In this document: piece after piece, positions 3,633 to 23,100 of the stretch
How positions within the stretch are numbered: position 1 is the stretch's first letter
Layout of the letters: every line of letters begins with the position of its first letter
Source: a virus
IMG/VR virus record: IMGVR_UViG_3300030055_000029
Span: 1-29,233 of that record
DNA: 29,233 nt
Reading direction: 5' to 3' (one strand)
The notes under the pieces: generated by a model
Database searches by the model: none
Seen by the model: the letters and a program-made list of their open reading frames with translations, nothing else
Told to the model about the DNA's origin: nothing
Program-made: the position numbers and the translations under genes

Positions 3633-4514
3633 ATGCTTTCATTTAAATCTTTTCTTTTTGAGGGTGGGAATGCTGTTCAAAAATACAACGTATCAAGAGC
3701 AAATCCTGCTGATGTGAAGGCCTGTTTAGAATTTGTATCCAAGCATTTGGGTATACCATATGATGAAATTAAAAATGACTTATTAGGTTCAACAGAACTA
3801 ACATTTCTTGGTAAGAAAAAAGATAGCGGTGATGTTGATATTGCCTTTTCATTAGAACATGTTGATGTGAATGATGTTAACAAAAAGATGTTAGCTGCTG
3901 TAAATGGAGAAGGTACCTATAATGCAGGTACAAAAGTTGGATCTTATGCTGTCCCAGTAAATGGGAAGAAGATTCAGGTCGATTTAATGTTTGTGTCAAA
4001 TAAAATTTGGGCTAAATGGATGTACCATTCTTCACAAGGTAATGGATCTGCTTATCCTGGTGTAGTTAGAAACATTTTACTTTTTACAACACTAGCACAT
4101 ACACAGACCCCTGGTAAAGATTTCGTGTTAAGAGACACTGAAGGTAAACCCGTCATACGTGCATCAAAGTCAATTAATATGGATGCTGGTATGAAGAGAC
4201 TTTTTAAGATGTCAAAAGTAAATTCAAAAACCGGTAAATACAATAAGTCAATTGACACAGTCGAACCATCTGAGATTGAATCACATTTGAAATCTATAGG
4301 AAAAAATATCCCATTTTCAAAGGATAGAGATTTCACTGACAAACCTGATGATGTTGCTAAATTTATTTTTGGAGATTCTGTTAAAGGAACAGATTTAATG
4401 ACGGCAGAAAATGTCATTTCTCAGATTAAGAAACTGAAAAATGCAACTGAAATAATAAATGCATCAAAGAAAGAACTAACACGTCTCAATTTACCAATAC
4501 CTAAAGAACTATGA
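3633..4514 (+). CDS. Nucleotidyltransferase-fold protein with capsid-targeting-like leader
   Basis: The 293-residue protein starts at ATG 3633; a GTG one codon upstream is possible but less likely. After a short leader (MLSFKSFLFEGG) the motifs of a polymerase-beta-type nucleotidyltransferase appear: GS at 52-53, DVD at 67-69, and a third acidic residue D117 in VDLMF. Such folds transfer NMPs to proteins, RNA or small molecules; the target here is unknown. The leader ends in LFE followed by G, matching the (L/I)xE|(A/G) sites cut by the T4 prohead protease gp21. The stop overlaps the next ATG (ATGA), tying it to the ART-like genes. A distant paralogue without the leader lies at 23166-24152. 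The fold is moderately sure; packaging is inference. Confidence 0.65.
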   Translation: MLSFKSFLFEGGNAVQKYNVSRANPADVKACLEFVSKHLGIPYDEIKNDLLGSTELTFLGKKKDSGDVDIAFSLEHVDVNDVNKKMLAAVNGEGTYNAGTKVGSYAVPVNGKKIQVDLMFVSNKIWAKWMYHSSQGNGSAYPGVVRNILLFTTLAHTQTPGKDFVLRDTEGKPVIRASKSINMDAGMKRLFKMSKVNSKTGKYNKSIDTVEPSEIESHLKSIGKNIPFSKDRDFTDKPDDVAKFIFGDSVKGTDLMTAENVISQIKKLKNATEIINASKKELTRLNLPIPKEL

Positions 4515-5428
4515 AACTACATGAACTATTTGAAGGCATCAAAAAAGATGACCAATTCAAAAAAGATTTAGCACTATTCATTAACAATTTGAACGCAATG
4601 ATAAAAGCTAAGAAGCTACTTTTCAGGGGTTTAGATAACATGGGCATCAATATGAAATCCACATCTGTGGAAAATGGGGATGATTTAATTTGGAAAATTA
4701 TAAAAGGTCGAGTAGATTCTATTAAGTCAGGAAATCGTGGTCCTAGAGAATCACTAACAGGAATAAATTTAATTTTGAATGTGACTACAAATTTCCCTTC
4801 ATGGAGTAAAATACCTAAAAGAAAGTTTAGTACTAGTTGCACCAGTTCTGGATATGATGCTAGTTTTTTCGGTGATGTATTTGTTATTGTTCCCGCTGAC
4901 AATGTTAAAAAATTCGCAATGTCAACAGGAGACTTTAATGAGTTGAGGATTAATAGTTCACCAATAATATCTTTAACACCAGCACTAAGTAATATTACTA
5001 AAACTTATATCGAAATAAATAATTTAAATATAAAGGAATTAGTTTCCTATGATCAATTTAAGGCTTTTTACAAGTGGGCTGATGCTAATTTATTAACACC
5101 TCCAACAAAACCATCTATTGGAAAAATAAATAAGTCGCATTATTCACTTACTACTGGTGCAGATGCAATATCATTTTTGAAAAACATGAAATGTTCTTCA
5201 TTTGAAGAATTCTTTGAAGATAGGTTGTCACCATCAAAATTGGGAATATTAGAGTTTGATTCAATTGATGAACTTTTAAATAATCCAAAATCATCTAAGT
5301 CAAATGAGGTTTGGTTTGAGGGTGATTATTTACTCATCACTTCTGATTTCTTTGATAATTATTCTGGCATGAATCAATCTGGTTTAACCACACAATTTTC
5401 AAAAATGATAAAACGGGTAATAGGGTAA
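4511..5428 (+). CDS. Putative virion-packaged ADP-ribosyltransferase, copy 1
   Basis: This 305-residue protein is first of three tandem paralogues. It opens with MKLHELFEG, which resembles the MELITELFDE start of T4 Alt and ends in a gp21-like site (LFE|G). R-S-E type ART motifs can be traced: R39 in LLFRG, an STS at 107-109 in KFSTSCTS followed by FGDVFVIVP, and E266 in NEVWFEGDY. A conserved PRES..G.NL block sits at 78-87. The position two before the catalytic-type Glu is Ser, so the ExE pair of arginine-specific ARTs is missing and another acceptor is possible. T4 Alt enters with the DNA and modifies host RNA polymerase; a similar role is plausible. The start overlaps the upstream stop, suggesting coupled translation. 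Confidence 0.6.
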   Translation: MKLHELFEGIKKDDQFKKDLALFINNLNAMIKAKKLLFRGLDNMGINMKSTSVENGDDLIWKIIKGRVDSIKSGNRGPRESLTGINLILNVTTNFPSWSKIPKRKFSTSCTSSGYDASFFGDVFVIVPADNVKKFAMSTGDFNELRINSSPIISLTPALSNITKTYIEINNLNIKELVSYDQFKAFYKWADANLLTPPTKPSIGKINKSHYSLTTGADAISFLKNMKCSSFEEFFEDRLSPSKLGILEFDSIDELLNNPKSSKSNEVWFEGDYLLITSDFFDNYSGMNQSGLTTQFSKMIKRVIG

Positions 5429-5431
5429 AAA

Positions 5432-6343
5432 ATGAAACTACATGAATTGTTTGAAGATCAGAATGGTGATCAAGATTTAATCGACATCTTAAGAAAGCAC
5501 TGTCCCAATAACTTAAAAGCTATGGCTTCAGGAAGGGCCCCAATGTTGTGGAGGGGTATGAATTGGGATGCTAGTATTGAAACTCCTAAATACAAGTGTG
5601 ACACGGTTAGTACACAGAAAACAAAACGCGAATCGAAAACTGGATCAAATCTGATAATGAGTTTCTTTTCAACAAACAAAGACTGGGTTGAATCAACTGT
5701 TAATAGATCACTTTCTACTTCCACTTCCTGTTCGTACGATTACGCTTCACAGTTTTCTGGTCCAACATGGTTGGTTATTCCATTTGATAATGTCAAACGT
5801 TTCAGTTATACATATACGGATTTAAATTTAGTTGATGTAAATGATACCTCGCTTATTGATTTGAATCACCAAATGAAGGATATTTCTAATGCAATAGAAG
5901 GTTTTCGTCATTGGAATTATGATAAGCTAGATAAAGATATTGCTAGAATAGCGCATGCTGATATTTTTGATTATGATATTGGGTCTCACCATTATTCAAC
6001 TGAAGAAATAAAAGAATTTTCAAATCAGCTTGAAAAAATATTTGTATTGTTAAAGAATACAAAGAAAAGAAAAACACTAGCAGTAACAGATGCAGCAACT
6101 TTCAAAGATATGGAAGAAGAAATGAATGACTCCTCCATGTATCGTTGGATGTTAAATGAACTCTCTCCATCTGCATTAGGTATAAAGACATTTAATTCTA
6201 TAACTCAAATTCCTAATCATGTTAAAAAAGCTGAAGTATGGTTTGATGGGGATTATTTTATTTTTAGCCCAGTAGCATCTCAGTTAACAGCATCACAACC
6301 TTTTAATATAGAATGGTTCAAAGAAATAATTGCAAAGGTATAA
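5432..6343 (+). CDS. Putative virion-packaged ADP-ribosyltransferase, copy 2
   Basis: This 303-residue paralogue of the 4511 gene starts three bases after its stop. The leader is again MKLHELFE but the next residue is D, a weaker gp21-type site. ART-like landmarks are R41 in MLWRG, STS at 95-97, the block FSGPTWLVIPFDN at 108-120, and E268 in AEVWFDGDY. RES at 66-68 aligns with PRES of copy 1. Residues 150-245 are poorly conserved between copies and may set the target. The residue two before the Glu is Lys, so no ExE. Family membership rests on short motifs and is moderately sure. Confidence 0.58.
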   Translation: MKLHELFEDQNGDQDLIDILRKHCPNNLKAMASGRAPMLWRGMNWDASIETPKYKCDTVSTQKTKRESKTGSNLIMSFFSTNKDWVESTVNRSLSTSTSCSYDYASQFSGPTWLVIPFDNVKRFSYTYTDLNLVDVNDTSLIDLNHQMKDISNAIEGFRHWNYDKLDKDIARIAHADIFDYDIGSHHYSTEEIKEFSNQLEKIFVLLKNTKKRKTLAVTDAATFKDMEEEMNDSSMYRWMLNELSPSALGIKTFNSITQIPNHVKKAEVWFDGDYFIFSPVASQLTASQPFNIEWFKEIIAKV

Positions 6344-6344
6344 T

Positions 6345-7277
6345 ATGAAGTTGTTTGAACTATTTGAACAGAAGAATGATTTAGCATCAGCAATAAAACA
6401 ACACAGTCCCGATAATTTTAGAGCATTGATATCAGGCAGTGCACCAGCATTATATCGCGGAGTACATAGTAGAGTATTAGAAGAAGGAAATTTCAACTAC
6501 GATATAGTTAAAGAAAGAACTCAACCCAGAGAATCAATGACAAGATCAAATTTATTTTTAGATTTTACATCTGAAAGTAAAAGTTGGAAATCATTGGGGG
6601 TTGACAGAGCATTTTCTACATTCGTTACGGTGAATGTAGAAAATGCTGAAATATTTGGTGATCCATTTTTAATCATTCCATTTGACAATGTTTCAACTTT
6701 TGCATCAACACGTGCAGATTTCAATTTAGTAACATTTGGTAAAAATAAAAATTCTATATCACAGATTTCTAGAACAATAGGATTTGTTTGTACTACGGTT
6801 ATTCAGTTTGGGCAAAAATCAGGTTTCTTCAATAAGGTTTTACCAAAGGATTTTATCAACGTTATTAAAAATGGATTTATAACAAAATTTAGGAACATTA
6901 AACATTTTACACAGGATGACATTAAAAAATTATCTGATTCACTTGGTGCACTTAAATCACTGCCATTTGATTTAGAGATTGAAAAGTTAAAATCTAGTGG
7001 ATCACAAGAGTTAGCCATTATTCATTTAGAAGATCTTCAGAGCCAATTATTTACTTTAGATAAGATGCTATCAGGTAAATCGTTAAATGATTGGTTACAA
7101 TTTAACATGTCACCTAAAGCTGTAGGCGTAAAAGTTTTTGAACATTATCAGGATATTATCGTTTCAAAAAATGCTGAACTTTGGTTTAGAGGACAGTATA
7201 TAATGATAAATCATGAATCAATTAAAATTGAAAAGTTATATTCTTCTAAAGAATTTGAAAATCTGATGCAAGTTTAA
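6345..7277 (+). CDS. Putative virion-packaged ADP-ribosyltransferase, copy 3
   Basis: The start is ATG 6345, preceded by AAAGG; a TTG at 6330 would add five residues in front of the conserved leader and is rejected. The protein has 310 residues and begins MKLFELFEQ, the same leader with Q after LFE. Landmarks: R38 in ALYRG, PRES at 61-64, STF at 91-93 (the third Ser of the other copies is Phe), FGDPFLIIPFDN after it, and E278 in AELWFRGQY. It is the most diverged copy. The three genes look like an amplified and diversified effector family. Confidence 0.57.
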   Translation: MKLFELFEQKNDLASAIKQHSPDNFRALISGSAPALYRGVHSRVLEEGNFNYDIVKERTQPRESMTRSNLFLDFTSESKSWKSLGVDRAFSTFVTVNVENAEIFGDPFLIIPFDNVSTFASTRADFNLVTFGKNKNSISQISRTIGFVCTTVIQFGQKSGFFNKVLPKDFINVIKNGFITKFRNIKHFTQDDIKKLSDSLGALKSLPFDLEIEKLKSSGSQELAIIHLEDLQSQLFTLDKMLSGKSLNDWLQFNMSPKAVGVKVFEHYQDIIVSKNAELWFRGQYIMINHESIKIEKLYSSKEFENLMQV

Positions 7278-7301
7278 CAGATATCAACTTCATAGTATAA
7301 T
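7273..7301 (+). promoter_or_regulatory. Possible sigma-70-type promoter for gene 42 region
   Basis: TATAAT at 7296-7301 is preceded by TTTAAC at 7273-7278 with a 17-base spacer, 28 bases upstream of the dCMP hydroxymethylase ATG. This would start the nucleotide and modification operon separately from the late effector genes. The -35 is weak and overlaps the end of the preceding gene. Confidence 0.4.
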
Positions 7302-7304
7302 GAT

Positions 7305-7321
7305 CCAATAATAATTATTGG
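7305..7321 (+). promoter_or_regulatory. Hairpin touching the ribosome binding site of gene 42
   Basis: CCAATAA-TAA-TTATTGG is a perfect 7-bp stem with a 3-base loop. Its last two bases are the first two of the GGAG (7320-7323) that serves the ATG at 7329. The stem is AT-rich and may only modestly limit ribosome access, but the position is that of a translational operator. Confidence 0.35.
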
Positions 7322-7328
7322 AGCGTCT

Positions 7329-8072
7329 ATGCTTGGTTTATCTCTAAGAACACACAATGTTCGAAATCTCTTTATTTCCATCCTTGAACAAAAACTCTTT
7401 ACTTCTGTAAATCGAGAAGGGTCAATGACTGACCTGGTTGGTAATACAACAATCGAAATTGTTAATGCATCGTTCATTGCAGATGAACCTTCAATCTTCG
7501 GTGAAGTCAATTTAGATTATGTCAGACGTGAAGAAGAATGGTATAATTCAATGTCACTTAACGTGAATGATATTCCAGGTGGAGCTCCAGCAGTCTGGAA
7601 AGCAGTGGCTGATGAAAATGGTTTTATCAATTCCAATTACGGTTGGGCTATCTATTCTCCAGATAATGGTTTTGATGAACTACCTCTCAACGAGAATAAT
7701 GAATTAAACTCTCAGTACGGTTCCGTAGTAAAAGAACTCCGTAAAAATCCTGAATCACGTCGAGCAATGATGATCTACACTCGACCTTCAATGTGGTTAG
7801 ATTACAACAAGAATGGTCGTTCTGACTTCATGTGTACGAATGCAGTCCAATATCTGATACGTGGTGGCAAAATCCATTCAATAGTTCAGATGCGCAGCAA
7901 TGATGCAGTGTTCGGTTACAAAAATGATTGGGCATGGCAAAAACACGTACTTGACAAATTAGCAAATGATTTAAGTATTCCATCTGGGAATATTTTCTGG
8001 AATGTTGGAAGTCTTCATGTATATTCAAGACATTACCACCTTGTTGATCCAATTAACTACAGTAGGAAATAA
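7329..8072 (+). CDS. 42: Deoxycytidylate 5-hydroxymethylase (T4 gp42 homologue)
   Basis: The enzyme makes 5-hydroxymethyl-dCMP from dCMP and methylene-tetrahydrofolate. The 247 residues match T4 gp42 (246) in length and in many blocks: ASFIADEPSIFG at 47-58, NSNYGWAIYS at 101-110, FMCTNAVQYLIR at 167-178, RSND at 189-192 and WNVGSLHVYSRH at 224-235. Cys169 is the catalytic nucleophile position. Asp200, eleven residues after the Arg of RSND, sits where thymidylate synthase has Asn177; Asp there is the known mark of the dCMP enzyme. The C terminus is a little shorter than in T4. It implies the phage replaces cytosine with hydroxymethylcytosine, and agrees with the BGT-like gene at 12255. Confidence 0.93.
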   Translation: MLGLSLRTHNVRNLFISILEQKLFTSVNREGSMTDLVGNTTIEIVNASFIADEPSIFGEVNLDYVRREEEWYNSMSLNVNDIPGGAPAVWKAVADENGFINSNYGWAIYSPDNGFDELPLNENNELNSQYGSVVKELRKNPESRRAMMIYTRPSMWLDYNKNGRSDFMCTNAVQYLIRGGKIHSIVQMRSNDAVFGYKNDWAWQKHVLDKLANDLSIPSGNIFWNVGSLHVYSRHYHLVDPINYSRK

Positions 8073-8074
8073 AA

Positions 8075-8317
8075 ATGTGTGATTGTGGAACTTGCAACGA
8101 CATCAAACGTTGGAAAGATGTCATTAAGAATGGTACCGTAGACGAACGTTTTGAAGTGTTCAATGAAATGTTTGGTCGCATTGAACTAGCAGAAACTGAT
8201 CTTCTGTATTATCAATCCATTTTAAATGGATCATGGCCAAATGCTCAAAGCATTTTAGAAAGAAAATTGGCATTCATAAAGGAGAAAAATGCACAGAATC
8301 TACCTCTCACGGACTAA
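8075..8317 (+). CDS. Small unknown protein with N-terminal Cys pair
   Basis: An 80-residue protein beginning two bases after the gene 42 stop, likely in the same transcript. It starts MCDCGTCNDIKRWK: three cysteines in the first seven residues, possibly metal binding, followed by a mostly helical, charged stretch. I do not recognise the family. The next gene begins inside its 3' end. Confidence 0.65.
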   Translation: MCDCGTCNDIKRWKDVIKNGTVDERFEVFNEMFGRIELAETDLLYYQSILNGSWPNAQSILERKLAFIKEKNAQNLPLTD

Positions 8318-8483
8318 TCTCCTTGCTCTCCTTGCTAAGTTGGATAGTCAGAATGGTGAATTTGAACCAAATGCGACATCAATTATCAAGCATGATAAAC
8401 AGGATCCAAGATTTGATCAGACACTTCCGATAGTTTGTGTTACTGCTATCGAAGATGAAATTTATTACGGTAAAAAATCATGA
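8289..8483 (+). CDS. Small unknown protein, first copy of a duplicated pair
   Basis: A 64-residue protein starting inside the upstream gene in another frame, with AAGGAGAAAA just before the ATG. It matches the product of the following reading frame (8480-8731): TNLLALLAKLD aligns with NLLTLLSKLD, and VCVTAIEDEIYY with VVTAIDDEEYY. So it is one of two tandem duplicates of an unrecognised short acidic domain. Its stop overlaps the next ATG (ATGA at 8480-8483). Another frame through 8233-8433 is treated as a shadow. Confidence 0.65.
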   Translation: MHRIYLSRTNLLALLAKLDSQNGEFEPNATSIIKHDKQDPRFDQTLPIVCVTAIEDEIYYGKKS

Positions 8484-13875: not shown

Positions 13876-13929
13876 TTGAATTTCCCGTAAATACAACGTG
13901 CCCGGATTTCGGGAGATAAGGAGAAAAAT

Positions 13930-15789
13930 ATGAAGATAGTTATTTGTTCAGGTGGTACAGGTTCAATTGCATTACAAACAGGATTGTACAAAACGTTCCA
14001 AGATATTGATGGGGTCGATATCAAAATTTTGATTAATGCATATGACAATGGTAAGTCAACGGGTGATGTTAGACGGGTTGCTGGAGGTAAAATTCTTGGA
14101 CCTTCAGATATGCGCAAAAATCAAACCACGCGTTTATCTTTAGAAAATATCAAGTCACCATGGTTAAGCTATCTTGATATTCGTTTTACTGAAGAGTCAA
14201 CTAAAGCTAAACAGTACTGCGAAGAACAGACTGACATTCTTAGAAGTCAAATTACTGATGACATTTCAGAAGTGTATGAAGCTATTGACATTTATTTCAA
14301 GAAACATTCTGCAGAAAAAATTAACTATACGGATTTTGCTCTAGCTAATATCGTTTATGCAGGCTTATCTATTAAGCACAATAATTCACTTCGTATGGCA
14401 GGAAGTGTCATGGCTAGATTGATGGGAATTAGTGACAACGTTATTCTCAATGACGACACATCATTGTTTTTAGGAGCAATCTCTAAGTCAGGTGAACACG
14501 TTTCTGATGAAGGTGATATTGTTGCTTGGGGTAAAAAAGATGACCCATTTGTGAATGTCTATTTTACTGATACTGAAGGATATAGTTTCAAACCAATTTT
14601 GTGTGATGAAGCACGAGATGCTTTGATTGATGCTGATCTAATTATTCTTTCTTCTGGAACATTTTGGGCTTCATTGATGCCTACTTATGTCAGTATTGGT
14701 TTTAAAGAAGCCATGGCACAGACAAAGGCAAAGGTGCTAATGGTTATGAATCGTTTCCCTGATACAGATAGTCCAGGTCAAACGGGTACGGAAATTATCA
14801 ATGCACTGGTGCCAAGCATCTTTAAAGAAAAGCAGATTACGATTGTTGCAGACTCGTCTGGTTCTCCACAGATGAATGCATTTGAGAAAGATATTTTTAA
14901 TCTCATTGATAGGTTGTATGTTGACAATTTAATGATGACTGGAGAAACTTCGCCATCTGACATGAAGAAACATAATCCTATTAAGCTAGCACGACTTGTT
15001 GGTGTTGCTTATTTCGGTGATGCTTTAACATCATCTCATTTTATGTTTGATTATGATGACACGTTAGTTGGTAGAGGTAATAAATTGCCTAAATCATCTA
15101 GAGTCAATATTGTTGAACTTAACAGATTGAATTCAAAATTAAAGAACAGTTTATCAATATGCACTGGGAACAGTATCAAGGCAATCGATTTAAATATTGG
15201 TGAATGGCATGTTGATCTTATTAGAAGTATAAATATTTTTGCAGATGGTGGAGTAAATAATTACACTTATCTAGAAGATACATCAAGCACCGATGACAAT
15301 AATAGAAAGATAACATTTAATGGATGTGTAAACGATTCATACATTATTCCAGAAGAAGTTATTAATCAATTGGTTTGGCGTTTAAGAGATGCTGGAATTC
15401 AATTCTACAAAATTGAAATCCGCGGCGGTGTTATGATTTCTATTAAGCCTATTGAACAGGAATATAGAAAACCAATTCTGACATTAGTCAAGATGATCTT
15501 AGCAGAATTTGTGAACATCGAATTGGTAGCTAAATTATCTGGTAGGACCACTATTGAAATAGCTCATAAAGATATTTCAAAAGCTGATGCACTTAGAAGC
15601 ATTCTTCAACAACCCAATGTTACAAGTATCACATATGTGGGAGATGAATTGCTAAGTGGTAATGATTCACCCATCGCAATGTTAGCTCAACAGGATAGTA
15701 GAATTAAAACTCTAAATGTATCATCTCCTTCTCAGACAGCATTTTTCCTAAAAACGCTGTCACGTGGAAAGTCATCATACTCTTTATAA
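13930..15789 (+). CDS. YvcK/CofD-like domain fused to a HAD sugar-phosphate phosphatase or mutase-like domain
   Basis: In this 619-residue fusion, residues 1-365 look like the CofD/YvcK (UPF0052) family: SGGTGSIALQTGL at 7-19, NAYDNGKSTGDVRRV at 36-50, GKILGPSDMRKNQ at 53-65. YvcK proteins bind UDP-sugars and CofD transfers a phospho-lactyl group. Residues 366-619 form a HAD-IIB-like domain with all four motifs: DYDDTL 374-379, CTGNS 411-415, a Lys in the KDISKAD segment (547-553), and GDELLSGND 571-579, the last resembling the phosphomannomutase-type motif GDxxxxGGND. With the neighbouring sugar nucleotidyltransferase it probably makes or handles an activated sugar. The exact reaction is inference. 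A good GGAG precedes the start. Confidence 0.75.
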   Translation: MKIVICSGGTGSIALQTGLYKTFQDIDGVDIKILINAYDNGKSTGDVRRVAGGKILGPSDMRKNQTTRLSLENIKSPWLSYLDIRFTEESTKAKQYCEEQTDILRSQITDDISEVYEAIDIYFKKHSAEKINYTDFALANIVYAGLSIKHNNSLRMAGSVMARLMGISDNVILNDDTSLFLGAISKSGEHVSDEGDIVAWGKKDDPFVNVYFTDTEGYSFKPILCDEARDALIDADLIILSSGTFWASLMPTYVSIGFKEAMAQTKAKVLMVMNRFPDTDSPGQTGTEIINALVPSIFKEKQITIVADSSGSPQMNAFEKDIFNLIDRLYVDNLMMTGETSPSDMKKHNPIKLARLVGVAYFGDALTSSHFMFDYDDTLVGRGNKLPKSSRVNIVELNRLNSKLKNSLSICTGNSIKAIDLNIGEWHVDLIRSINIFADGGVNNYTYLEDTSSTDDNNRKITFNGCVNDSYIIPEEVINQLVWRLRDAGIQFYKIEIRGGVMISIKPIEQEYRKPILTLVKMILAEFVNIELVAKLSGRTTIEIAHKDISKADALRSILQQPNVTSITYVGDELLSGNDSPIAMLAQQDSRIKTLNVSSPSQTAFFLKTLSRGKSSYSL

Positions 15790-15801
15790 GGATAATCAAA
15801 A

Positions 15802-16584
15802 ATGGCAACTGATATAACAGCCGATCTTTACATTATTGCAGCAGGTAAAGGAACACGCATGGGTAATAAGTTGCCAAAAGCACTTATCCCATTCAATGGA
15901 GAACCATGTTTAACACACACACTTAAAAACATAGGACAACATTTCAGAAATGTTTTTGTTGTTATAAATGAAGATATTCAAGATGTGTGGGATAGATACA
16001 AGTCAGAAATTTCACTTAGTAGTCACCCATTCTCAATGAATGTTCAGTTTATTCCTATCAAATCTGGTTTGGGAGATGGACATGCTACCTTAATGGCTCT
16101 TGAAAAAGCGCCCGCTATAGCAACATTATCTCCAGAAATAGTAGTATGTTGGGGTGATGTTTATTTTCATCAACCAGAAATAATTACTGAACTTCTTAGC
16201 ATGAAGATGTCTTCTAATGGAATAGTTCCAGCTCTACTTGAACAAAATCCGTATGTTACTTTGTTGGTTGATGATACTCTAAACTGTATGTCAGCGGATT
16301 TCTCAAAATACGGTGAGCAACACCCAAGTGGTTTTCATGATCAATCAGTCTTCAGACTGAAGTATGATGTGACTGTTGCTGCTCTTTCAAGACTTCATAA
16401 AGCATTTTGGAAAAATGGAAGATATGCAACCCCTGGTGGCGAGCTTTCACTGTTGTATATTTTCCATTACTTGTACAATCTAGAATGCCCAGTAACAGTA
16501 TATGAAACTAGTCACTCGACAAAATCTTTTAACACTGACACAGAAGTCAAATTAATACGCGAGGAAATTTTAAATGACAAATAG
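15802..16584 (+). CDS. Sugar-1-phosphate nucleotidyltransferase-like protein
   Basis: A 260-residue GT-A type NTP transferase. IIAAGKGTRMGNKLPKAL at 11-28 is the nucleotide-binding signature (xxAGxGTRMxxxxPKxL), SGLGDGHATLMAL at 88-100 is the second nucleotide/sugar segment, and WGD at 117-119 supplies the metal-binding Asp. Such enzymes join a sugar-1-phosphate or similar alcohol phosphate to an NTP to give an NDP-sugar or NDP-polyol. It follows the CofD-like/HAD gene by 12 bases and overlaps the next gene, so the pair probably acts in one pathway, most simply to feed the BGT-like enzyme. The substrate cannot be read from the sequence. Confidence 0.8.
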   Translation: MATDITADLYIIAAGKGTRMGNKLPKALIPFNGEPCLTHTLKNIGQHFRNVFVVINEDIQDVWDRYKSEISLSSHPFSMNVQFIPIKSGLGDGHATLMALEKAPAIATLSPEIVVCWGDVYFHQPEIITELLSMKMSSNGIVPALLEQNPYVTLLVDDTLNCMSADFSKYGEQHPSGFHDQSVFRLKYDVTVAALSRLHKAFWKNGRYATPGGELSLLYIFHYLYNLECPVTVYETSHSTKSFNTDTEVKLIREEILNDK

Positions 16585-17236
16585 ACAACAGCCCATTCTA
16601 ATCACATTGACAGCCCCATCTTGTGGAGGTAAAAGTTATCTTCTTAACTACATACGTGACATTGCAAAAATGCCATGTTTGATCTCAACCACTACAAGAC
16701 CTCCTCGAGCAAATGAAGTTGAAGGAGTTGATTATTATTTCATCACCGAAGAACAGTCTATTCAGTTAGCAGTTATGGATCAATTTGCTGAATTAGCAAT
16801 CTATAACGGTGTTCGATATGGGGTGACACGTAAAGAACTTAAAGAAAAACTTTCATCTGGTTATGCATTCCTGATTATCGAACCAGGTGGTCTCGAAGGG
16901 TACGTTCAATCTGCTATTGATATGGGTGCGAAGCATCTTAAGTACTACATCCATACTGATCCAGAAACACGCATTGAAAGATTCTATGATCGCGTGAACA
17001 AAGACGTTACAAAATTATTCGGAAAAACTCTTGATCGTGAATATACGAAACTCGATTTAGAAAGTGATACTAAGGAAATAATTCATGCATCACTGACAAG
17101 GTTCAGAAATATGCTAACAACGGAAATGACATGGGGCAGTGATTACCAATGGGACAGAATACTATTTGGTACAACATTTCCAGAAGAAAATTTACAAATC
17201 ATTCAAAATGATATTAGGGAATTGATTAAAAGCTGA
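16574..17236 (+). CDS. gmk: Guanylate kinase
   Basis: A 220-residue protein with P-loop APSCGGKS at 14-21 (GPSGxGKS in the family) and STTTRPPRANEVEGVDYYF at 38-56, the near-invariant GMP-binding signature. Length is close to the usual 200-210. It converts (d)GMP to (d)GDP. The Cys in the P-loop is unusual. It overlaps the preceding gene by 11 bases after GAGGAAA. In this operon it would supply dGTP for phage DNA; a role in activating another nucleotide is less likely. Confidence 0.88.
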   Translation: MTNRQQPILITLTAPSCGGKSYLLNYIRDIAKMPCLISTTTRPPRANEVEGVDYYFITEEQSIQLAVMDQFAELAIYNGVRYGVTRKELKEKLSSGYAFLIIEPGGLEGYVQSAIDMGAKHLKYYIHTDPETRIERFYDRVNKDVTKLFGKTLDREYTKLDLESDTKEIIHASLTRFRNMLTTEMTWGSDYQWDRILFGTTFPEENLQIIQNDIRELIKS

Positions 17237-17284: not shown

Positions 17285-17713
17285 ATGACAAATACTACTC
17301 CCTCTTTCTGGCCAGCTGATATTGAAGATATGCACACTAAATTCGGTGTGAATAAAGTTGTTGCTACTCTCGATAAAGAACAACTCAAAACATATTTGAA
17401 GTTTCGTCTTGACATGGTCCAAGAAGAAGTAACTGAAGCAATGAGTGCATTCGCATCTGGAGATGCAGATGGTGTCGTTGATGCTTTGATTGACAATATC
17501 GTTTTTGCTATTGGTACATTGGATGTTTTCGGAATTGATCCATATGCTGCTTGGAATGAAGTCCATTCAAAGAATATGGAAAAATCACCAGGTGTAAAAG
17601 CTGGTCGTCCAAATCCATACGGATTCCCTGACCTTATTAAGCCACCGTCATGGCAGGCGCCGGTTCATTTAGATAATCTAGGGTTGTTATCTAAAGTATT
17701 CCCACAGGAGTAA
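17285..17713 (+). CDS. MazG-like all-alpha NTP pyrophosphatase (possible dCTPase)
   Basis: The 142-residue protein shows the metal-binding pattern of the all-alpha NTP pyrophosphohydrolases: QEEVTEA at 46-52 (E47, E48, E51) and DALIDNIVFAIGTLDVFGID at 66-85 (D66, D70), followed by EVHSKNMEK. These enzymes cut NTP to NMP and pyrophosphate. A phage with hmC DNA must destroy dCTP, as T4 gp56 does, and gp56 belongs to this broad fold; I infer dCTP, possibly dUTP, as substrate. AAGGATAA precedes the start. Confidence 0.78.
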   Translation: MTNTTPSFWPADIEDMHTKFGVNKVVATLDKEQLKTYLKFRLDMVQEEVTEAMSAFASGDADGVVDALIDNIVFAIGTLDVFGIDPYAAWNEVHSKNMEKSPGVKAGRPNPYGFPDLIKPPSWQAPVHLDNLGLLSKVFPQE

Positions 17714-17876: not shown

Positions 17877-19844
17877 ATGAAACTACTAGCATTTGCAAAT
17901 GCACAACATGAACTGAAAGAAGCTTCAGTCAAATCTGAGAATGTCCATCTTGCAATGGACAAAATGATTAAATTCATTCAAAAGAAACTTGATGTGAAAT
18001 TATTAAAGGTACCAGGTGTAGAACATTTTAACAATTCCAGCGACCACGGTTATGGAGTACGTTACATTTTCTCTGGTTCAACAAAATGTTTAAGATTTAA
18101 TTGGGCATCTGATGGTCAAGCTGGAAAGTCAAATGAAATTGTGTCAGTTGATATTTTCAATGGAAAAACTTCACACCCAAATTTCAATGTACATTGTAAA
18201 GGAATTTCCTTTGTAAGAGCCCTGCCTGTTATTATTGACATAATTGGTTCACCTTCTTTAGGAAAAGTAACTGCTTTCCCTGTTAATCCAACTGAAGCAA
18301 TTTCAGAATCTTTTCTGATTGAAGTCGCACGTGATGCTTTTACTGCTGAACGTGCACTAACTGACTTCCTAAAAAGATTAGGAGCAGGTAACGCATTGAC
18401 GAGATCAGATTTTATCGGATCATATCACATTGTTAATGTTGGTATTTTCGATACCATCATGCGCGATTTCAAAGATTCTTTTAGTATCTCAGGCAAACGC
18501 GTATCAATAAAAGTAGGTTCAAATTTGGGTGATCTGAAAGAATCAATCCTTTCAAAGTCGGGATCTGTAATTGTAACCGCTGGTGGTACAGATGAAAATT
18601 ATTTGAAGACTCCTCAAGAAGATGAACTTGCTGAGGAAGAAGGAAGTGACCACGTTCCATATAGTGATGCATTAGAACATCTTGAAGGTCTAGTTACTGG
18701 TACTATCAAGGGAGCATTCAATGCTTTGTTTGTTGCTGGTAAAGGTGGATGTTTTTCAGGTGACACAAAGATCAACATTGTTGTGAATGATTTAGTTCAT
18801 ACTGTTACGTTTTTTGAAATTGAACAAAGGGTAAAACAGTCATATGGTTTAGCTAGCCTTTTGTTGAATGAGTTTTATAAGATGGATGACGTAAAAGTTG
18901 AGACTCCAACCGGTTATTTGGACGTTTTGAGCTTTGTTAAGAAATCTGGTACAAAAGCTGTTGTGACTTTTCAATCTGGAATAGTTCATGAATGTCTTTC
19001 CAACCATCTTTATATCAATACCTCCGGTCATGCTGTTGCTGTCTATAATTTATATCCTGGTTCTCCAATAAGAATGAGGGATGGTACGTTAGATTTTATT
19101 AAATCAGTTGCGTTGACTGATGAACCAATGTTAGCATTCGATTTATCTGTTAGCGGTATCGATAGCATTTATGTTACGACTGATGGTATTCAATCTCACA
19201 ACACTGGTAAAACAACCATTGTTGAAAAGGTTTTACATTCACATGGATTGACAGATGGAAACGGTTATTACAAAAATACTGGTTCAGCGTCCGCAATCGG
19301 GATTTATCAATCTCTTTACAAAAATAGAAACAGCATTATTCTATTCGATGATTGTGATGGAGCACTATCTGATACAGATGCACGCAATCTTATTAAAGCA
19401 GCAACTGACACAAAGAAGAATAGAAAAATCGTATGGAATAAAAGAACATCTGGTAGCTATGACCCAAATGACATGAATGCTGCTTTGTATGCTGAAGATC
19501 CAGATAGATTTCCTACACACTTTGAATTTACTGGTCGTGTTATTTTTATTTCTAACTTACCACTTTCAAAATTGGATCCAGATGGTGCTATTAGAACACG
19601 TGCCTTCGTGATTAACATCAACCCAACTGATGATGAAATGTACGAACACATGGAAAAAATTCTTCATAACATCCGTCTTGAAGAAGGTCTTTCTCTATCA
19701 AAAGACGAAAGAGAAAACGTGTTTAAGGTTGTCAAAACATCCAAGCGTAAGGGTGATGTATCAATTAGAAAATTGGTTAGAGCTTTAAATCTAGCAGCAA
19801 CACACGCACCAGGTTGGGAAAAACTTGTGGACCTGTACGCCTGA
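17877..19844 (+). CDS. AAA-type ATPase containing a mini-intein in its Walker A loop
   Basis: The precursor has 655 residues; removing the intein (292-442) gives a 504-residue ATPase. The extein joins AGKGG to TGKTT, a complete Walker A. Walker B is IILFDDCD around 487-494, followed by a VIFISNLP sensor-like strand and an IRTRAF arginine segment. The C-terminal part and motif order match the product of 27273-28241 (GEGGLGKT, IIIFDDCD, FISNLP, IRSRA), so the two are paralogues. The first 250 residues are specific to this copy; an LKE|A at residues 13-16 resembles a prohead protease site but may be chance. Function unknown: a phage P-loop motor or remodelling protein. The SD is weak. Confidence 0.8.
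   Translation: MKLLAFANAQHELKEASVKSENVHLAMDKMIKFIQKKLDVKLLKVPGVEHFNNSSDHGYGVRYIFSGSTKCLRFNWASDGQAGKSNEIVSVDIFNGKTSHPNFNVHCKGISFVRALPVIIDIIGSPSLGKVTAFPVNPTEAISESFLIEVARDAFTAERALTDFLKRLGAGNALTRSDFIGSYHIVNVGIFDTIMRDFKDSFSISGKRVSIKVGSNLGDLKESILSKSGSVIVTAGGTDENYLKTPQEDELAEEEGSDHVPYSDALEHLEGLVTGTIKGAFNALFVAGKGGCFSGDTKINIVVNDLVHTVTFFEIEQRVKQSYGLASLLLNEFYKMDDVKVETPTGYLDVLSFVKKSGTKAVVTFQSGIVHECLSNHLYINTSGHAVAVYNLYPGSPIRMRDGTLDFIKSVALTDEPMLAFDLSVSGIDSIYVTTDGIQSHNTGKTTIVEKVLHSHGLTDGNGYYKNTGSASAIGIYQSLYKNRNSIILFDDCDGALSDTDARNLIKAATDTKKNRKIVWNKRTSGSYDPNDMNAALYAEDPDRFPTHFEFTGRVIFISNLPLSKLDPDGAIRTRAFVININPTDDEMYEHMEKILHNIRLEEGLSLSKDERENVFKVVKTSKRKGDVSIRKLVRALNLAATHAPGWEKLVDLYA
18750..19202 (+). mobile_element. 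Mini-intein (151 residues, no homing endonuclease)
   Basis: The in-frame insert begins with Cys (CFSGDTKI, a typical block A) and ends SHN before a Thr. The C-terminal block F is visible (AFDLSVSG...TTDGIQSHN). Block B is atypical: in CLSNHLYIN the His is present but the usual Thr three residues earlier is Leu. At 151 residues there is no room for a LAGLIDADG or HNH endonuclease. The insertion splits the Walker A between G and T, a common choice of conserved site for inteins. Splicing should restore the ATPase using +1 Thr. Confidence 0.88.
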
Positions 19845-19901: not shown

Positions 19902-20756
19902 ATGTCTGAAAATAGAAGAGCATCCCAAAGAACATATCACATTATCTATAGAACTACATGTGATATTACGGGTAAATGGTATATTGGGATGCACAGCACT
20001 GATAAACTTGATGATGGATATTTAGGTTCCGGAATGCACTTATGGAGATCAATTGATAAGTATGGTAAAGATCACCATAGAGTTGAAATAATAGAATATC
20101 TTTCTGATAGAAAATCTTTATCAGAAAGAGAAAGAGAACTTCTAAAAGAAGCAAAAAAAGATCCACTATGTATGAATATTGCTTGGGGAGGTGAAGGATA
20201 TTATGATCGTCCTCCTACAACCGAAGAAACTGCTGCTAAACTTTCTAAAGCATCTAAGAATTATGTTCGTACAAAAGAATGGTATGAAAAAGCTGTTGCT
20301 ACTAGAATGGCAAATGACGGTTATAATGTTACAAGTGAGACAAAAGAAAAGATTAGAACTGCTCTTACTGGAAAAACTCTTACAGAAGAACATAAGCAAA
20401 AAATTTCTATTGGTGGTACTGGACAAAAGAGAACAGAAGAAACTTGTAAGAATATTTCCAAAGCTCTTAAGGGAAAAAAGTTCAAATCTGGATTGGATAG
20501 AAAACCAGTATCTAAAGAAACACGAGAAAACACAAGTAAAATTCGTATGGGGCAAAAGCTAACAGAAGAGCAACGTCAACAGCGGGCATTGAATAAATTG
20601 AAACGTATTGAGCTCGGTATTCAAAAAGCAAATGTGCGTCCAACTAAAAAGTGTACGGTTGATGGTATCAAAATTTATGCATCTGTTAGAGAGATGGTGA
20701 AGGAACTTGGCTCAGGTAAAAATGGAACACATTCTCCTTCATTTAGATTTATTTAG
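19902..20756 (+). CDS. Free-standing GIY-YIG homing endonuclease with NUMOD3 repeats
   Basis: A 284-residue protein. The GIY-YIG core is HIIY (13-16) with WYIG (26-29), then an Arg in LWRSIDKYG, VEIIEYL, a Glu-rich helix (ERERELL) and NIAWGGEG. Residues 100-240 hold repeated NUMOD3 DNA-binding motifs, such as SETKEKIRTALTGK, LTEEHKQKIS, TEETCKNISKALKGK and LTEEQRQQRA. T4 Seg proteins and I-TevI relatives are built this way. It lies 57 bases downstream of the intein-bearing ATPase gene and probably cuts a nearby site in related phages, spreading itself and perhaps the intein. Expression appears restricted by the upstream hairpin. Confidence 0.88.
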   Translation: MSENRRASQRTYHIIYRTTCDITGKWYIGMHSTDKLDDGYLGSGMHLWRSIDKYGKDHHRVEIIEYLSDRKSLSERERELLKEAKKDPLCMNIAWGGEGYYDRPPTTEETAAKLSKASKNYVRTKEWYEKAVATRMANDGYNVTSETKEKIRTALTGKTLTEEHKQKISIGGTGQKRTEETCKNISKALKGKKFKSGLDRKPVSKETRENTSKIRMGQKLTEEQRQQRALNKLKRIELGIQKANVRPTKKCTVDGIKIYASVREMVKELGSGKNGTHSPSFRFI

Positions 20757-21580: not shown

Positions 21581-21862
21581 ATGTTTCTTTTAGTAATCTT
21601 GGAAGTGTTTCTGGTTATCGGTGTCGTTCTGATACTGTTAACTCAGATCATTATGCCAATGCTATTTGGCACACGATTGTTTCCATTGTTCAGGAATTCT
21701 GAACTGAAAAAGAAGGTCGAGGAAACACGACATCAAGTTGAAGACTTGAAAGACCAAAATGAACAACTTGATGTTCTCTCTGGTCTACTTGCAGAGCGCA
21801 AGGCTCTCGAGGAACAAATTGCAAAAATCGAAAATCAATCAACTGAAAATGGAGTTAAATAA
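21581..21862 (+). CDS. Small membrane protein with coiled coil
   Basis: A 93-residue protein after a strong AAGGAG. Residues 1-30 form one long hydrophobic helix (LLVILEVFLVIGVVLILLTQ), then a basic stretch (RLFPLFRNSELKKK) and a charged coiled coil to residue 85. It is anchored in the inner membrane, with the coil probably cytoplasmic. Its TAA overlaps the ATG of the SPFH protein (TAATG), which suggests a shared complex. Function unknown. Confidence 0.75.
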   Translation: MFLLVILEVFLVIGVVLILLTQIIMPMLFGTRLFPLFRNSELKKKVEETRHQVEDLKDQNEQLDVLSGLLAERKALEEQIAKIENQSTENGVK

Positions 21863-23100
21863 TGATCGCAAATAAGAAGTTTGTTTTGGGTGCTATTGCT
21901 GCCGCTGCTACTGTTGTCACCTTGGTGCTTTCACCGATGCTTGTTGAAAACGTTGATGCCGGTAACATCACTGTTATTCAATCCCCGGTTTCTGGTGACT
22001 TGACTGTTTACTTTGATGGTGGTTGGAAGTGGCAAGGTTTTGGTAAGGTAACGACTTATCCTCGTCGTGATATTTTTGATTTCAGCATCAAGAAAGCCGA
22101 GGGTGCCGATAAAGCTGTTCCAGGTGATGAATCTGACAAGTCTATCCCAACTCGTTTTAATGATGGTGGTAATGGTAGCATCTCTGGTACCATGAACTGG
22201 CAAATGCCTTTGAAGGCTGATAGTGTTATTGCTTTGCACAAGGATTTCGGTTCTGTAGCAGCAATTGAACAGCAATTGATTCGTACTGCTATGCAGAAAG
22301 TTGTTTACAACGTTGGTCCAACAATGTCGTCTACCGAATCTTCTGCTGAAAAACGTCCAGAAATTCCAAAGTATGTTGATGACCAATTGATTCATGGTCC
22401 CTACTTGACGAAGACTGTTCAAATGATTCAACAAGACCCCGTGACTGGAAAAGATAAGCAAGTTGCAGTAGTGCAAATTGCTATGAGTGACAATGGTCAA
22501 CCACTCCGTGAATCCAAATCTCAGATTACTGAGTATGGCATCATGCTTCAACCAGTGTCTATCAATCAAATCCGATACAACAAGATTGTTGAAGATCAAA
22601 TTGCTCAACGCCAAATTGCAACAACCCAAGTTCAAATTTCTATTGCGAATGCTCGAAAAGCTGAACAAGAAGCAATCACTACTGAGCAACAAGGTAAGGC
22701 AAATGCTGCAAAAGCTAAGTGGGAACAAGAAGTTGAAAATGCTAAGACCATCGCTGATGCACAAGCAAAGATCATTATTGCTGATGCTAACGTAAAGGAA
22801 GCCGAAGCATTCAAGAAGTCTGAAACTCTCCGCGGTGAAGGTGAAGCTGCTCGTAAGCGGTTGGTTATGGAAGCCGACGGTCAATTGGACAAGAAGCTTG
22901 AAGCTATTGTGAAGATCAACTCGCTTTATGCTGATGCAATCAAGTCTGCTCAACCCGGCGCATGGAGTCCTTCTGTTGTTATGGGTGGTTCTTCTGGTAC
23001 AAATGGTGGTCAAAATGCTTCAACTTTGGTTGATCTCATGACTGCTAAAACTGCCAAGGAAATTGGATTGGATCTTTCTGTCCGCACAGGTAAGAAGTAA
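21862..23100 (+). CDS. SPFH/band-7 (stomatin-prohibitin-like) membrane protein
   Basis: A 412-residue protein. Residues 5-26 are an N-terminal membrane anchor (VLGAIAAAATVVTLVLSPML). Residues 33-240 look like an SPFH domain (NITVIQSPVSGDLTVYFDGGW early, SITEYGIMLQPVSINQIRY-like strand late). About 245-345 are a long Ala/Glu/Lys-rich helix with repeated KAEQEA, GKANAAKAK and GEGEAARKR units, as in flotillin and HflK/HflC. Such proteins assemble rings that organise membranes and regulate proteases such as FtsH. A phage copy could replace or poison host HflKC. Its codons look richer in G and C than the neighbours, which produces a long open antisense frame. Expression with the preceding coiled-coil protein is likely. 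Confidence 0.78.
   Translation: MIANKKFVLGAIAAAATVVTLVLSPMLVENVDAGNITVIQSPVSGDLTVYFDGGWKWQGFGKVTTYPRRDIFDFSIKKAEGADKAVPGDESDKSIPTRFNDGGNGSISGTMNWQMPLKADSVIALHKDFGSVAAIEQQLIRTAMQKVVYNVGPTMSSTESSAEKRPEIPKYVDDQLIHGPYLTKTVQMIQQDPVTGKDKQVAVVQIAMSDNGQPLRESKSQITEYGIMLQPVSINQIRYNKIVEDQIAQRQIATTQVQISIANARKAEQEAITTEQQGKANAAKAKWEQEVENAKTIADAQAKIIIADANVKEAEAFKKSETLRGEGEAARKRLVMEADGQLDKKLEAIVKINSLYADAIKSAQPGAWSPSVVMGGSSGTNGGQNASTLVDLMTAKTAKEIGLDLSVRTGKK

Follow-up and report, generated by a model that had tools for sequence, protein, structure and literature searches.

The protein that fuses a CofD/GlmR-like domain with a HAD domain and the nucleotidyltransferase encoded by the following gene form a conserved two-gene sugar-nucleotide cassette, which phages combine with DNA glucosyltransferases. 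The cassette was analysed in a window of 29,233 nucleotides from a virus (positions 1 to 29,233 of the IMG/VR record IMGVR_UViG_3300030055_000029), whose relevant features are collected in Table 1. We propose that it probably provides the phage with its own supply of a sugar nucleotide, a UDP-hexose, feeding a DNA glucosyltransferase that acts on hydroxymethylcytosine. The proposal is built on the domain identities, the conserved active sites, the gene linkage, the co-inheritance and the co-occurrence with glucosyltransferases that were observed, from which we infer the reactions, the identity of the sugar and the step of the CofD domain.

Table 1. Features of the cassette and of the associated DNA modification genes in the window.
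Feature	Position	Strand	Evidence
Thymidylate-synthase-family (TS) dCMP hydroxymethylase-like protein, Asp at TS Asn177 position	7329..8072	+	profiles, alignment
P-loop nucleotide-kinase-like protein (phrog_761), in 11/12 BGT-phage loci	11677..12258	+	
T4-type DNA beta-glucosyltransferase (BGT), 404 aa	12255..13469	+	profiles; active-site residues conserved
Shine-Dalgarno-like AAGGAG, 6 nt 5' of the fusion ATG	13918..13923	+	sequence
CofD/GlmR-like + alpha-phosphohexomutase-like HAD fusion, 619 aa	13930..15789	+	ORF, profiles, alignment, model
YvcK/GlmR-CofD-fold domain, N-terminal, residues 1-345	13930..14964	+	structure match, alignment
HAD domain, C-terminal, residues 366-613, PMM2/alpha-PGM type	15025..15768	+	profiles, structure, alignment
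GlmU-N-like sugar-1-phosphate nucleotidyltransferase, 260 aa	15802..16584	+	profiles, structure, linkage
Guanylate-kinase-like protein, candidate (hydroxymethyl-)dNMP kinase	16574..17236	+	
MazG/PRA-PH-like nucleotide pyrophosphohydrolase, candidate dCTP-depleting enzyme	17285..17713	+	

Domain architecture of the fusion protein

The original prediction described a single 619-residue chain with a UPF0052-type N-terminal half and all the HAD motifs. This is confirmed by the open reading frame, which runs through 619 codons without an internal stop, by profile searches and by an AlphaFold model, and the CofD-HAD domain fusion is real. The N-terminal half matches the Pfam family PF01933 (CofD) over residues 3-298 (E 3.1e-17, 63 bits for a cut-off of 30) and the YvcK model TIGR01826 (E 6e-17), yet in the latter case its 62 bits stay below the curated cut-off of 196. 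The C-terminal half scores 42.3 bits with TIGR01484 (HAD-IIB, E 8.4e-11), barely above the cut-off of 41.8, and 19.7 bits with Pfam Hydrolase_3, slightly below the cut-off of 20.9. Weak profile scores had been named as evidence that would count against the fusion, and those obtained are adequate for either half. The GAK-system CofD model TIGR04357 was rejected for the fusion (score of 36 for a cut-off of 340), and no matching family was found in PHROGs.

The HAD motifs are complete (D374-x-D376-x-T378, T412-G-N, K551 and G571-D572-E573...G577-N-D579). When 31 fusion homologues were aligned, D374, D376, T378, N414, K551 and E573 were invariant, and Asp572 of motif IV was replaced by Asn in the bacterial polysaccharide clade. 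This alignment was the input to the AlphaFold model, in which both the YvcK/CofD and the HAD folds were confirmed (pLDDT 92, pTM 0.91). Residues 1-359 of the model match the YvcK of Bacillus halodurans (2o2z; Z 31.5, 2.3 A over 293 residues), FbiA and CofD being poorer matches of this half (Z 20-21), and residues 361-615 match trehalose-6-phosphate phosphatase, phosphomannomutase (PMM) and alpha-phosphoglucomutase (alpha-PGM), tied at Z 17-18.

The nucleotidyltransferase partner

The region singled out in the original prediction, 13930-15789, ends one gene short of the nucleotidyltransferase at 15802-16584. This protein matches the GlmU fold (Z 27.4), with G15, R19, K26, the WGD motif, D119 and N244 invariant. 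The loci were gathered by searching with the fusion alone, not with the nucleotidyltransferase, and the latter is present in cis in 35 of the 35 loci with a CofD-HAD pair. The two genes overlap or are less than 80 bp apart in 33 of these loci, and a distance of 1.2 kb is seen in two near-identical huge-phage records. One of the 35 (L035) has CofD and HAD in separate frames, the HAD frame touching the nucleotidyltransferase. In a further locus outside the 35 (L042, 6305-8560, Desulfobacteraceae), a single protein of 751 aa contains both CofD and nucleotidyltransferase, and all that separates them of HAD is a remnant (motif I, VIFDVDQTL), as if the HAD domain had been lost. The trees of the fusion and of the nucleotidyltransferase contain the same three main groups: (i) the BGT phages, (ii) bacterial polysaccharide loci with one phage (L017), and (iii) a Christensenella/Clostridia group with three phages; LR756500 forms a long branch whose placement is unsure.

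Link to DNA glycosylation genes

Among the 16 viral records carrying the fusion, 12 have a BGT (PF09198) and three a TET-associated glycosyltransferase (TAGT), which gives 15 records with a DNA-type glucosyltransferase. The TAGT gene lies near the cassette in L018 and L019, and L017 has two TAGT genes elsewhere in its 352-kb contig. The last record, L022, has neither BGT nor TAGT and shows a weak glycosyltransferase match only. Some records are near-copies (LR756500 of L016, L012 of L013), so that the viral cases amount to about 14 independent ones, including the virus of the window itself (L001). Whether the fusion always occurs with BGT-like and nucleotidyltransferase genes had been put forward as a check: the nucleotidyltransferase accompanies it in all CofD-HAD loci, and BGT in 12 of the 16 viral records. 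Frequent occurrence in phages devoid of modification genes, named as an argument against the prediction, was not observed, a recognised DNA glucosyltransferase being absent from just one viral record.

In the BGT of the window, E25, D141, R232, R236, R313 and E316 align with E22, D100, R191, R195, R269 and E272 of the T4 enzyme, which we take to be its active-site and UDP-site residues; since these are kept, a UDP-sugar is expected to be the donor. The TS-like proteins of the BGT phages have Asp at the Asn177 position in 12 of 12 cases, as in dCMP hydroxymethylases, whereas Asn stands there in the true TS that the same virus encodes. Two kinase-like genes are found near the cassette in 11 of the 12 BGT phages. 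BGT relatives are present in 120 of 50,697 phage records, and LR756500 is the only one of these that also has the cassette. A cytosine-C5 methylase was found, among nine records, in the L017 phage only. For the TET dioxygenase (PF12851), the source of hydroxymethylcytosine sought in the non-BGT phages, no match was obtained, the control genomes being equally silent. A queuine tRNA-ribosyltransferase-like gene (7122-8342) lies close to the CofD-HAD pair of L022 and could indicate 7-deazaguanine modification.

Proposed pathway

The supply route would comprise three steps: (i) the HAD domain would convert a host hexose-6-phosphate, most simply glucose-6-phosphate, into an alpha-hexose-1-phosphate; (ii) the GlmU-like nucleotidyltransferase would combine the hexose-1-phosphate with UTP to yield the UDP-hexose; and (iii) BGT, or TAGT in other phages, would place the hexose on hydroxymethylcytosine, itself formed by the dCMP hydroxymethylase-like protein of the phage and phosphorylated to the triphosphate level by its kinases. 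T4 obtains its UDP-glucose from the host (PMC6024577). An own route to UDP-glucose seems needless where the host supplies this compound, as for T4, and therefore the sugar may not be glucose.

The "unusual sugar-phosphate chemistry" foreseen from the sequence stands as regards the link to sugar phosphates, in view of the YvcK/CofD and phosphomannomutase-like modules and of the BGT and nucleotidyltransferase neighbours. The word unusual does not suit two of the three activities, a mutase and a pyrophosphorylase amounting to NDP-hexose synthesis; it still suits the CofD domain. A literature search among open-licence papers returned no paper linking CofD/YvcK proteins to phage DNA modification (hypermodification, TET, glucosyltransferase) or to phage UDP-glucose supply.

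Role of the CofD/GlmR domain

The CofD domain is the best-conserved part of the fusion, with about 25 invariant positions, among them D39, N40, S43, G45, R48, D60, R62, K63, N64, D193, E194, W246, N274, D278 and D280. D39 corresponds to the first Asp of the GlmR catalytic pair (D38/D39 in B. subtilis), the second position being N40. The Staphylococcus YvcK/GlmR sequence likewise has Asp-Asn at this pair, and the GlmR of S. aureus has been reported to be active (PMC10128056). The FbiA metal-binding pair is D45/D57 (PMC7253369), of which the invariant D39/D60 are plausible counterparts, and the metal site of the CofD/GlmR domain is probably catalytic. BLAST matches in "Listeria" and "Staphylococcus phage" records resemble YvcK/GlmR genes of the host and were rejected as phage fusions; the Listeria and Staphylococcus matches served for residue comparison only. 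Asn198 of Listeria, reported as catalytic, was left out of this comparison, its position being Thr when the numbering is set by D40/D41. An Acaryochloris conjugative plasmid (L005, 11983-13080) encodes a CofD protein that belongs to the same subfamily and stands alone, without HAD domain.

GlmR is an accessory uridyltransferase forming UDP-GlcNAc from GlcNAc-1-P and UTP (PMC10128056), an activity required in vivo (PMC13046274), and it is also a regulator controlled by UDP-GlcNAc (PMC10128056, PMC13046274). By analogy, the CofD/GlmR domain would bind a UDP-sugar or sugar-phosphate of the kind handled by the rest of the cassette and, since its two-aspartate site seems intact, would most likely perform or control a transfer step on this pool. 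Whether by analogy this step could be a GlmR-like uridylyl transfer is a question on which we lean slightly to the negative: such a step would duplicate the nucleotidyltransferase, never missing from the CofD-HAD loci, and this counts against it. As the neighbouring nucleotidyltransferase seems suited to the uridyl step and both are always kept, either each would have a substrate of its own, or the nucleotidyltransferase would be controlled or followed by the CofD domain.

In a variant of the supply cassette, the CofD/GlmR domain would be a mere UDP-sugar sensor or scaffold, by which both the HAD mutase and the nucleotidyltransferase would be controlled in the way that GlmR controls GlmS. The GlmR of B. 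subtilis binds UDP-GlcNAc and switches partners (PMC7525490), and fusion to a mutase would suit control or channelling; the invariant D39/D60 site and the many other invariant residues suggest, however, catalysis beyond sensing, and we regard a purely regulatory domain as somewhat unlikely.

Role of the HAD domain

When the HAD domain alone was used as a profile, the top PDB matches were the L. lactis alpha-PGM 4bnd (E 1e-13), the Plasmodium PMM 7myv (E 5e-13) and PMM2 (E 6e-8); the best phosphatase, 1nf2 (E 4e-7), came behind the mutases. The cap pattern E-x-R...P...R with G-x-T-T-I-(D/E) aligns with PMM chains. R498 and R513 of the fusion align with R123 and R141 of PMM2, R134 being without a clear counterpart, and we take R123, R134 and R141 (PMM2 numbering) to be the substrate arginines of the cap; R498 is absent from some members of the Christensenella/Clostridia clade. 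Glucose phosphates, too, are interconverted by Plasmodium PMM (PMC8808168). The best reading of these sequence comparisons is that the HAD half would be a hexose-phosphate mutase of the PMM2/alpha-PGM type; the unmatched R134 and the Asn at position 572 in the bacterial polysaccharide clade count against it.

Alternatively, the HAD half could be a phosphatase of the trehalose-6-phosphate or sucrose-phosphate type, by which the product of the cassette would be dephosphorylated. Structural comparison does not separate mutase from phosphatase, the Z of 18.2 for trehalose-6-phosphate phosphatase tying with that of 17.7 for PMM, and weak matches to Hydrolase_3 and to the SPP subfamily are in favour of a phosphatase. 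The sequence profiles nevertheless put alpha-PGM and PMM first and trehalose-6-phosphate phosphatase far below (5dxi, E 0.099), and we consider a phosphatase unlikely.

A scheme modelled on CofC and CofD

In F420 synthesis, the nucleotidyltransferase CofC/FbiD acts first and the transferase CofD/FbiA second (PMC7253369). Since the CofD domain and the nucleotidyltransferase of the cassette are always kept although either may serve the uridyl step, a scheme of this kind is retained. The nucleotidyltransferase would make an NDP-X, the CofD domain would move phospho-X onto a hydroxyl of a sugar or of a hydroxymethyl base, giving a phosphodiester-linked decoration, and the HAD domain would trim or move phosphate. 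The scheme would explain the constant retention of both proteins; a MobA/GlmU-like nucleotidyltransferase is present in every CofD-HAD locus and fused to CofD in L042, and no part of the fusion is as invariant as the CofD site. However, the domain is nearer to YvcK/GlmR (Z 31) than to CofD/FbiA, the closest relatives of the nucleotidyltransferase are sugar-1-phosphate enzymes, and the nucleotide sugar that the DNA glucosyltransferase needs would not be supplied directly; we consider the scheme distinctly unlikely. A phosphodiester-linked group placed in this way on the glycosylated or hydroxymethylated cytosine of the phage, again by analogy, is quite improbable; we know of no description of such a DNA hypermodification.

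Occurrence in bacteria

The CofD-HAD fusion is not phage-specific. It was found at full length in 18 further cases in gut-bacterial contigs, many of them within polysaccharide clusters, contrary to the earlier statement that no standard bacterial protein with this domain order was known. The contigs belong to Lachnospiraceae, Oscillospiraceae, Erysipelotrichaceae, Christensenellaceae and others, and the fusion is rare (2 of 397 genomes in a sample of Lachnospiraceae). Its neighbours include GT2 and GT8 glycosyltransferases, flippases, a cytidylyltransferase and a GDP-mannose-dehydratase-like gene. Two contigs of the Christensenella/Clostridia clade (L034 and L041) carry replication or ATPase genes of a phage-like kind and are possibly of phage origin. 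The location of the bacterial homologues in polysaccharide clusters could also mean that the cassette serves the remodelling of the host envelope or exopolysaccharide during infection and not DNA, but most phages have it within a few genes of BGT/TAGT, of a dCMP-hydroxymethylase-like gene and of nucleotide kinases, and this explanation is very unlikely.

On a Dysosmobacter contig (L030, 13798-15366), a nucleotidyltransferase-APH protein, relative of RB69ORF052c, is encoded beside the CofD-HAD pair, and a SIS-domain gene adjoins; relatives of this protein occur in 353 phage records. Because a relative of the RB69 protein adjoins the cassette in one bacterial contig, polysaccharide loci may be a common source of the cassette and of the RB69-type protein.

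Other genes in the window

The AAA+ ATPase encoded by ORF 17877-19844 contains a 151-residue mini-intein-like insert (18750-19202; C...HN followed by T) exactly in its Walker A loop, between GKGG and TGKT, which is absent from the relatives in L002, L010, L011, L013 and L015. A GIY-YIG/NUMOD3 homing-endonuclease-like gene (19902-20756) comes directly after the intein-bearing gene. The SPFH/Band 7 protein encoded at 21862-23100 has 44% identity to one of the 462-kb phage LR756500. Three genes in a row at 4511-7277 (303-315 aa) are probably a tandem family, as their matches are to uncharacterised PHROGs that are identical or related (12810, 11975).

Significance and comparison with known systems

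Phage DNA glycosylation is usually seen as the work of a transferase using host UDP-glucose, RB69 being the noted exception. If our proposal is true, the cassette would add to the RB69 module another one for sugar supply, unrelated to the first; it occurs in huge phages and is shared with bacterial polysaccharide clusters, and the sugar on the DNA of these phages may differ from that of T4. The cassette is a defined enzyme pair open to testing. For the YvcK/CofD superfamily, which is poorly understood, it provides a new setting: with its two likely partner activities linked or fused to the CofD domain, it can be decided whether the chemistry of the superfamily is uridyl transfer, phospho-transfer or control.

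The HAD half resembles the L. lactis alpha-PGM (4bnd), its best sequence match, and PMM2 in the catalytic motifs and in part of the cap signature; these are, in contrast, free-standing enzymes, and Arg134 of PMM2 is unmatched in the fusion. With the 2-phospho-L-lactate transferase CofD/FbiA and its partner CofC/FbiD, the cassette shares a fold (Z 20-21), a partner nucleotidyltransferase and plausibly the two-aspartate site, whereas the fusion domain is closer to YvcK; the scan of the window genes by general profiles revealed no F420 gene. The GlmR/YvcK of B. subtilis and L. monocytogenes has this fold as well (Z 31), together with the first catalytic Asp and a role in UDP-sugar biology, and acts in cells beside the mutase GlmM and the uridyltransferase GlmU, as the CofD domain stands beside a mutase-like HAD domain and a nucleotidyltransferase. 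It differs in that the fusion scores far below its curated cut-off (62 against 196 bits) and has new invariants (K63, N64, W246, D278 and D280) and a HAD domain.

The arabinosyl-hydroxymethylcytosine module of RB69 (ORF053_052c, ORF055c) is likewise encoded by the phage and is proposed to produce a nucleotide sugar not available from the host (PMC6024577); it feeds a glycosyltransferase acting on hydroxymethylcytosine and has diverged bacterial homologues. It is made of nucleotidyltransferase-like and sugar-isomerase-like proteins, in contrast to the CofD-HAD fusion and stand-alone nucleotidyltransferase described here, and the scan of the window genes brought to light neither an ORF053_052c-like nor a sugar-isomerase-like gene of this type. 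T4 glucosylation of hydroxymethylcytosine (gp42, BGT) is alike in its hydroxymethylase-like TS homologue and in a BGT with a conserved active site; T4 relies on host UDP-glucose (PMC6024577), whereas here the supply cassette travels with the BGT.
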